A stretch of DNA of 64,000 nt from Verrucomicrobiota bacterium (GTDB taxonomy: Bacteria > Verrucomicrobiota > Verrucomicrobiia > Limisphaerales > JAFGQR01), in contig JAFGQR010000019.1 in the NCBI GenBank assembly GCA_016935555.1, forward strand, positions 1 through 64,000. The letters run 5' to 3'. The translations under genes and the position numbers were made by a program. The notes below the pieces were generated by a model that had not been told where the DNA came from, ran no database searches, and was given only the letters and a program-made list of their open reading frames with translations. This document shows, piece by piece, positions 4,838-5,952 of the stretch (its first letter is position 1; each line of letters opens with the position of its first letter).

Positions 4838-5100
4838 CTCTCAGAGCCTAGCGAGGCGCAGGTTCAGACGGTTCGGGGCTTGAGTCGGCTGCAAGCCTAA
4901 GGTGTTTATCAAAGCGTTCATGGTGGCAGCGGTTGAGGGGGGGTGTGATGCGGGCGGGGGCGGGGTGGGTGAATGGCTGGTTTGCCCGGGGGTGGTGCGG
5001 GGTGGGCCGGGCGGACCGGTGGTAATGGCCTGGGGGCGAAAAAATGTGCAATTATAAGTGCCTATTGGATAAACATTTCGCATAAAAGCAAGAAAAATCT

Positions 5101-5129
5101 TTGAACAAAAACCGGTTTGCGGTTATCCT
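5101..5129 (+). promoter_or_regulatory. Sigma-70-type promoter for the small RNA
   Basis: TTGAAC at 5101-5106 and TATCCT at 5124-5129 are separated by exactly 17 bases. Immediately upstream (about 5050-5100) is a strikingly AT-rich stretch in an otherwise GC-rich genome, like an UP element. Predicted transcription start is about 5136. No protein-coding gene follows on this strand. Confidence 0.6.
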
Positions 5130-5135
5130 ATGAAT

Positions 5136-5303
5136 GTGCGATGGATTTCGCTGTTCGTTTAGGGTTGGCAGAAAGGTCTTGCTTGTAGTGAGGTTCGAGC
5201 AGCGATTAGGAAAGTTGGCCTCACTACCCTTCTGAGCGCCTGGGTGAAGGCGTCAATGACCTTATCACCAATGGGCCGGATATCCTCCGGCCCATTTGTT
5301 TGT
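5136..5303 (+). ncRNA. Candidate free-standing small RNA (about 165-170 nt), class unknown
   Basis: This unit lies between a good promoter and a textbook terminator and has no open reading frame of note. Visible structure: a small GCGA/TCGC hairpin at 5138-5151; a rod formed by 5170-5176 with 5228-5233 (one bulged A) continuing into the perfect 9-bp stem GTAGTGAGG (5185-5193) with CCTCACTAC (5219-5227); a bulged hairpin using GGTGA and TCACC (5242-5269); then the terminator. The length would suit 6S RNA, but I could not make the long closing stem and central bubble, and there is no SRP-type GGAA loop context or tmRNA feature. It could be a trans-acting regulatory RNA or a lineage-specific structured RNA. 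Confidence 0.55.
5270..5303 (+). terminator. Rho-independent terminator of the small RNA
   Basis: An 11-bp perfect stem, AATGGGCCGGA paired with TCCGGCCCATT around a TATCC loop, is followed by the T-rich tail TGTTTGT. This is the clearest intrinsic terminator in the window and reads on the plus strand. Confidence 0.8.
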
Positions 5304-5369: not shown

Positions 5370-5801
5370 TCAGCCCGGCTTTTGGGGGCTGGGGATGTGA
5401 ACGCCGGAGGCGGGTGAGGGGGGCGTTTTGCGGACGTTTTCGTTGATGCACTTGATCAGATTCTCCAGGGAAACGGGTTTGGCGAGGAACAAGCTTCCTC
5501 CGCTGTTCAAGCCGGCGGGGCCGGCTTCCCTGCGGGAGACGGTGGCGGTGAGGAAGACGACGGGGATGTTTTTGAGGTGCCTGTCGTTTTCGAAATGGGC
5601 GGCGACGTCTCCGCCGTCCATGGTGGGCATGATCACGTCCAGGAGGATCAGGTCCGGTTTGAATTCCCGGGCGGCTGCCAGGGCGTAGGTGGCCTTGTTT
5701 TCCTCGCGCACTTCGAAGCTGCCGGTTTTTTCCAGGTTGAGTTTCACCATGCGCGTGAAGCTCTCCTCGTCATCGACGATCAATATCCGTTTCTTATCCA
5801 T
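5370..5801 (-). CDS. Single-domain response regulator (CheY-like receiver)
   Basis: A 143-residue stand-alone receiver domain with no output domain. Acidic pocket and phospho-acceptor are visible in ILIVDDEESF and PDLILLDVIMPTMDGG; the conserved Thr/Lys switch region is VVFLTATVSRREA and LAKPVSLENL. The start MDKKRILIVDD is chosen because the receiver fold begins there; an upstream in-frame Met would add an unrelated Pro/Arg-rich leader. About 20 residues between the Thr and the Lys (AGPAGLNSGGS) are less conserved than usual. It is the last gene of a minus-strand signalling block and is separated from the kinase gene upstream by 151 bases with their own promoter-like sequence, so it may be expressed separately. 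Confidence 0.9.
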   Translation of the reverse strand: MDKKRILIVDDEESFTRMVKLNLEKTGSFEVREENKATYALAAAREFKPDLILLDVIMPTMDGGDVAAHFENDRHLKNIPVVFLTATVSRREAGPAGLNSGGSLFLAKPVSLENLIKCINENVRKTPPSPASGVHIPSPQKPG

Positions 5802-5825
5802 GTCGCGCAGGTTGTCCTTACCATG

Positions 5826-5854
5826 TTTATGTTGGCAGTCAACATATTCCGCAA
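5826..5854 (-). promoter_or_regulatory. Promoter-like sequence with a perfect palindrome upstream of the receiver gene
   Basis: On the minus strand TTGCGG (5854-5849) and CATAAA (5831-5826) are 17 bases apart. Between and overlapping them is the perfect inverted repeat TATGTTG-N5-CAACATA (5828-5846). This is a typical geometry for a repressor operator lying over a promoter spacer. The binding protein is unknown. Confidence 0.45.
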
Positions 5855-5952
5855 GGTTATTCGCGATTTGGCACGGTCCGGCCGGCGGGGGGCGGCGGGA
5901 GCCTGGCACGGGTGGGGGTGGCTGGCCGGTGGGGTGTGGGCGGGTGGGCGGT

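Follow-up and report, generated by a model that had tools for sequence, protein, structure and literature searches.

A pseudoknotted, free-standing RNA with an ECF-type promoter in the order Limisphaerales

The window analysed here, the 64,000 nucleotides at the start of contig JAFGQR010000019.1 from a Verrucomicrobiota bacterium of the order Limisphaerales, contains at 5136-5303 what is, on comparative grounds, a free-standing non-coding RNA gene: a conserved promoter, a core of about 123 nt and an intrinsic terminator. The predicted transcript lies on the plus strand, its start (5136) placed from the -10 element and its end (5303) at the T tail. The terminator (5270-5303, plus strand) has an 11-pair stem (5270-5280/5286-5296) followed by the T-rich tail TGTTTGT, and 95 of 97 homologues have a terminator too. 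This agrees with the preliminary description of this locus, which had recorded an intrinsic terminator with a T-tail. That description also held that no coding sequence lies between or after these elements, and this stands. The window annotation has no gene between the RNA and its terminator, and the next one on the 3' side is a convergent response-regulator gene on the minus strand (5370-5909). No sense open reading frame was found among the homologues, whose core lengths vary from 118 to 143 nt with no codon-position periodicity and no common start codon; a coding reading was dropped for want of a conserved frame. The window copy adjoins a ymdB-like gene, away from the usual locus of the family.

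By blastn, 24 of 57 relatives from the same order, each of another genus and family, match the locus, one of them (L025) in the promoter only; because so many relatives match, the locus lies far beyond chance. A MAFFT alignment of 24 sequences (A2), made from sequence alone, gave a first covariance model, R1, and 101 matches (A5) gave a second, R2. Of the 167 Limisphaerales genomes that are at least 90% complete, 104 carry the RNA by R2, mostly as a single copy and at most as five, and none of 288 genomes elsewhere in the phylum does, nearly all genomes compared being metagenome assemblies. Since 63 of the 167 genomes have no detectable copy, the RNA is not essential across the order. When GTDB species genomes were scanned by pattern and the matches rescored, almost all assemblies returned were labelled Limisphaerales, 'Verrucomicrobia subdivision 3' or Pedosphaera. 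Matches outside the order, at 20-24 bits, look like chance, and records labelled Omnitrophota (L086) and Patescibacteria (L116) are probably binning errors; the former retains the pgl/accA surroundings described below. By these searches the RNA family is new and specific to the Limisphaerales. No description of it was found in a partial literature search, in which a 2017 set of 224 candidate structured RNAs was compared only via Rfam.

A phage or plasmid origin was set aside, phage and plasmid records being without a match. One IMG/VR contig classed as viral (IMGVR_UViG_3300014199_000367) carries a copy of the RNA (L198:8089-8211) near a transposase-like gene and PEP-CTERM-like proteins; it has no clear phage families, and the few proteins checked do not support a phage origin.

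Covariation shows that the core is built of six short helices, interlocked as pseudoknots (all coordinates on the plus strand). Helix A pairs 5149-5157 (CGCTGTTCG) with 5196-5204 (CGAGCAGCG), with 95.6% of cells paired and double-sided changes at eight of nine pairs. Its 5' arm is followed by an unpaired, near-invariant AGGGTT (5161-5166; 94-100% identity per position in 101 sequences) and by hairpin G (5167-5183, stem 5167-5170/5180-5183; 98.4% paired, three of four pairs with double-sided changes). The loop of G contains the 5' arm of helix C (AAGGTC, 5173-5178), which pairs with GACCTT at 5258-5263 (99.1%, six of six). Helix B joins 5185-5194 (GTAGTGAGGT) to 5218-5227 (GCCTCACTAC), is 99.5% paired over 97 homologues with double-sided changes at nine of ten pairs, and contains the perfect 9-bp stem already noticed at 5185-5193/5219-5227, which proved exact. 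An unpaired, conserved AGTTG (5213-5217; 86-93% per position) stands immediately 5' of the second arm of B, and a near-invariant unpaired TCTGA (5231-5235; 98-99% per position) lies between B and hairpin E (5236-5253, stem 5236-5241/5248-5253; 98.1% paired). The loop of E holds the 5' arm of helix D (GGTGA, 5243-5247), which pairs with TCACC at 5265-5269 (99.8%, four of five) to form an H-type pseudoknot with E. The arms thus occur in the order A5', hairpin G with C5' in its loop, B5', A3', a loop, B3', TTCTGAG, hairpin E with D5' in its loop, C3', D3' and the terminator, and the crossings are A with B, A with C, G with C, C with D and D with E. The preliminary description spoke of several stems; the fold is a set of interlocked pseudoknots rather than a row of simple stems. 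The loop between A3' and B3' appears peripheral, because the L116 homologue carries an extra hairpin there.

Over the 40 pairs of the six helices, 98.3% of cells are paired in 97 distinct sequences and 33 pairs show double-sided changes, the compensatory evidence that an alignment of relatives had been proposed to supply; these change counts are inflated by kinship among the sequences, the effective number of which is about 39. When partners are slid by 1-3 columns, pairing falls to 33-53% in the same 97 sequences. The structure was derived from the sequences used for counting, and the slid and shuffled controls are far lower. In A2, whose 24 sequences were fitted to no structure, 97.6% of cells are paired and 23 of 35 pairs have double-sided changes; the alignment scores 0.384 for covariation, whereas shuffling gives 0.209 and sliding the partners 0.08-0.11. 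Five of the helices were first identified by eye on the alignment. An unguided, APC-corrected covariation scan of the 97 sequences placed pairs from B, C, E and A at the top and added hairpin G and a sixth pair of E (5241-5248, covarying as U-A/C-G/G-C, z = 9.4). Helices A, D and G lie outside the covariance model, so that alignment A5 was not fitted to them. Single-sequence folding gives z = -3.0 for the whole transcript and -1.2 for the part without the terminator; such nested folds are inadequate here, as they miss the pseudoknots. A further candidate helix, 5169-5173/5230-5234 (CAGAA/TTCTG), was rejected, being broken in many relatives and covarying less well than hairpin G, with which it shares bases. 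In one homologue (L097:7312-7492) the segment CTTCTGAGCGCC occurs six times in tandem, which may reflect slippage or misassembly.

The RNA has its own promoter, as had been proposed, but not of the type proposed. The hexamers of a 17-base-spaced sigma-70 promoter (TTGAAC-17-TATCCT) are literally there; a scan for the sigma-70 consensus is nevertheless negative, and the position equal to the sigma-70 -11 A, the second of the -10 box, is A in only 34%. The conserved letters are instead GAAC and a TC 18-19 nt beyond it. In the window, the -35 element GAAC is at 5103-5106 and the -10 element TCCTA (consensus TCYRA) at 5126-5130, 19 nt after GAAC, both on the plus strand. Among 96 homologues, 82 carry a recognisable GAAC element, lying 30-66 nt before the core, and 14 carry none; in 80 of the 82, TC follows at 18 or 19 nt. 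Upstream of the -35 element is an A/T-rich stretch (5090-5102, plus strand; consensus AAAANNTTTT). Counted from GAAC over the 82 homologues, A reaches 60-71% at positions -10 to -8 of this stretch, and T makes up 84-95% at -3 to -1; the bases 5' of GAAC can also be CC or CT. Aligned on GAAC, the homologues yield the consensus AAAANNTTTTTGAACA-N-TCYRA, and 77 of 97 homologues have TTGAAC in the 110 nt upstream, a hexamer that 4% of random stretches contain. The layout GAAC-N18/19-TC is that of the AlgU consensus GAACTT-N16/17-TCtgA (PMC10651043) and fits the RpoE elements GGAACTT and TCAAA (PMC12153292). An assignment to the ECF (RpoE/AlgU) type, rather than to sigma-70, is well supported by this pattern, and it is apparently a stress-type sigma factor, not the housekeeping one, that switches the RNA on. 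The host genome has 26 matches over cut-off to Sigma70_r4_2, region 4 of ECF sigma factors, and no ECF-type promoter was found upstream of the four 6S genes examined in relatives.

A search for the wider ECF regulon by promoter pattern alone gave counts near control in most genomes and was abandoned. In one genome, G147, there are more than 20 occurrences of TTTGAACAGGCCGCATTGACTTGCGTCTGA, many of them 63-97 bases from the end of a contig (for example G147:C3:65-94); it is probably a repeated element carrying an ECF-like promoter pattern. In the same genome the pattern also lies 23-36 nt before genes for a secreted redoxin-like protein and a Cys-rich secreted protein (L227, L222), which hints at a thiol or oxidative stress regulon.

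The usual locus of the RNA is zwf-pgl-[RNA]-accA-manA, the genes being named by reading their proteins. pgl is upstream in 55 of 97 loci and accA downstream in 49, one or both adjoining the RNA on the same strand in 70; the remaining loci are elsewhere, and two divergent copies of the RNA lie near dnaA. Since the pgl/accA neighbours vary and the window copy sits elsewhere, the RNA is not the leader of one gene. Nor does it keep the constant position upstream of a same-strand gene expected of a cis-regulatory leader such as a riboswitch, given the convergent gene in the window, the tandem copies and the varied neighbours. At L092:2773-3137 the copies are in tandem, and each unit has its own ECF-type promoter and terminator. 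With promoter and terminator of its own, the RNA is shown by these comparisons to be independent of any neighbouring gene. Tandem copies are about 250 nt apart, two in L092 and three on contig C72 of another genome (G584). The host genome also has a divergent second copy (L060:7025-7152, equal to G000:C123:26524-26651, minus strand), which begins about 49 nt past a 725-aa open reading frame; it keeps the interlocking helices via compensatory changes, its promoter and terminator are not recognisable, and a copy in L079 looks like the same subtype.

None of 4227 Rfam families matches the RNA, which bears out its first description as a free-standing structured RNA of no identifiable class. The covariance-model search that the description had called for (6S, SRP, tmRNA, RNase P) gave no match at the locus. 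In the window and 20 relatives there is none to SRP RNA, RNase P RNA, tmRNA, the raiA motif, riboswitches or any Rfam ribozyme; in the window no Rfam family reaches its gathering score at the locus, the only match at E <= 10 being suhB at 15 bits, resting on the terminator region, and ARAGORN finds no tRNA or tmRNA there. 6S RNA (RF00013) resembles the Limisphaerales RNA in its length of about 170 nt, its own promoter and terminator and its usual single copy. However, the locus has no RF00013 match at gathering score, and 50 of 58 genomes have 6S as a gene of its own at another place, 47 of them above cut-off; moreover, 6S is one long bulged hairpin with a central bubble mimicking an open promoter, whereas the RNA described here has six short interlocking helices. 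The host genome itself has no 6S match although most relatives have one; its assembly is 93.6% complete. The raiA motif RNA, or ModT, of Bacillota and Actinomycetota is likewise free-standing, strongly structured, conserved over a wide clade and trans-acting, and protein association is suspected for it too (PMC11706538); it differs in that the present RNA has no Rfam match, belongs to another phylum and a single order, and has an ECF-type promoter.

The promoter-only match in L025 precedes the gene of a 54-aa basic protein, which is conserved, with the motif KHRYERRK, in 47 of 58 relatives and belongs to no Pfam or NCBIfam family (example loci are L237, G052:C357:390-551; L240, G000:C114:54836-54994; and L262). 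A strict ECF-type promoter is present in 13 of 30 regions upstream of this gene, where a background of 1.4% predicts 0.4 (P ~5e-17), often about 70-165 nt before the start of the protein. The protein co-occurs weakly with the RNA, being found in 25 of 27 genomes that have the RNA and 22 of 31 that do not (Fisher p = 0.047, kinship uncorrected). It is a candidate partner or co-regulated effector of the RNA.

The existence, fold and promoter type of the RNA are well supported at the level of sequence; its expression and function we infer. The reading favoured here, at a probability of about one half, is that of a structured RNA that acts in trans under the control of an ECF sigma factor and probably serves as a compact scaffold for protein binding. 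An ECF sigma factor would transcribe it under envelope- or oxidative-type stress, and the RNA would act in trans as a rigid scaffold for one protein or a few partners, contacting them via the near-invariant unpaired AGGGTT, AGTTG and TCTGA and holding, sequestering or modifying its partner. Its working mode may be like that of 6S or raiA/ModT-type structured RNAs and unlike that of Hfq-dependent antisense RNA. Action in trans is suggested because the pgl/accA neighbours vary, the gene next to the window copy is convergent and tandem copies each come with a promoter and terminator.

The type of promoter does not in itself favour a scaffold, since the ECF-controlled RNAs of E. coli, such as MicA, RybB and MicL, act by base pairing. 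It may be that the Limisphaerales RNA follows the same logic on another scaffold, as an ECF-controlled antisense regulator whose knotted core protects and displays unpaired segments that pair with mRNAs without Hfq. This is the strongest of the alternatives, if a doubtful one. Antisense RNAs usually show less selection on the whole fold than is seen here, where the entire fold is under selection across the order. The near-invariance of the unpaired segments would suit pairing, as would the multiple and tandem copies in some genomes, which are common for such regulators. The RpoE-dependent MicA, RybB and MicL also share with the present RNA an ECF-type promoter, a free-standing gene and an intrinsic terminator (PMC8103513), but they lack its large covarying pseudoknot core, and Hfq is found in 0 of 58 genomes of its lineage, with E. 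coli and B. subtilis controls positive. Antisense pairing to the leader or mRNA of the 54-aa protein, the one co-regulated mRNA examined, gave no signal; there is no consistent complementarity, and the mean z is +0.25. The scaffold is modestly preferred because selection embraces the entire knotted fold, the lineage has no Hfq and no pairing with that mRNA turned up.

A catalytic or ligand-binding RNA, either a self-processing ribozyme or a free-standing aptamer acting after stress induction, is improbable. Small, dense, interlocked pseudoknot folds are typical of ribozymes and metabolite aptamers, and the near-invariant unpaired positions could make a pocket. The failure of Rfam ribozymes and riboswitches to match, an order of helix arms unlike that of HDV-like ribozymes, and a promoter and terminator of its own with no downstream gene to regulate in the window all argue against it. 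A cis-acting leader, terminator-attenuator or 3' element of pgl or accA, to which the frequent same-strand adjacency would point, is very improbable, given that most homologues have their own promoter and nearly all their own terminator, that the window copy has other neighbours and faces a convergent gene, and that tandem and extra copies are located elsewhere.

The scaffold reading can be extended, more speculatively and with rather poor odds, to a new class of knotted RNA through which an ECF stress response would take effect in a lineage that lacks Hfq, as a protein-binding machine and possibly as a dedicated ribonucleoprotein with the 54-aa protein. The small RNAs of this phylum have hardly been studied so far, and the family described here is well defined, with covariation-supported pseudoknots that are unusually dense for its length and a fold that is ready for structure determination. 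It suggests that a stress-type sigma factor may control a structured RNA where Hfq is absent, and makes small-RNA action without Hfq a testable question in the Limisphaerales.
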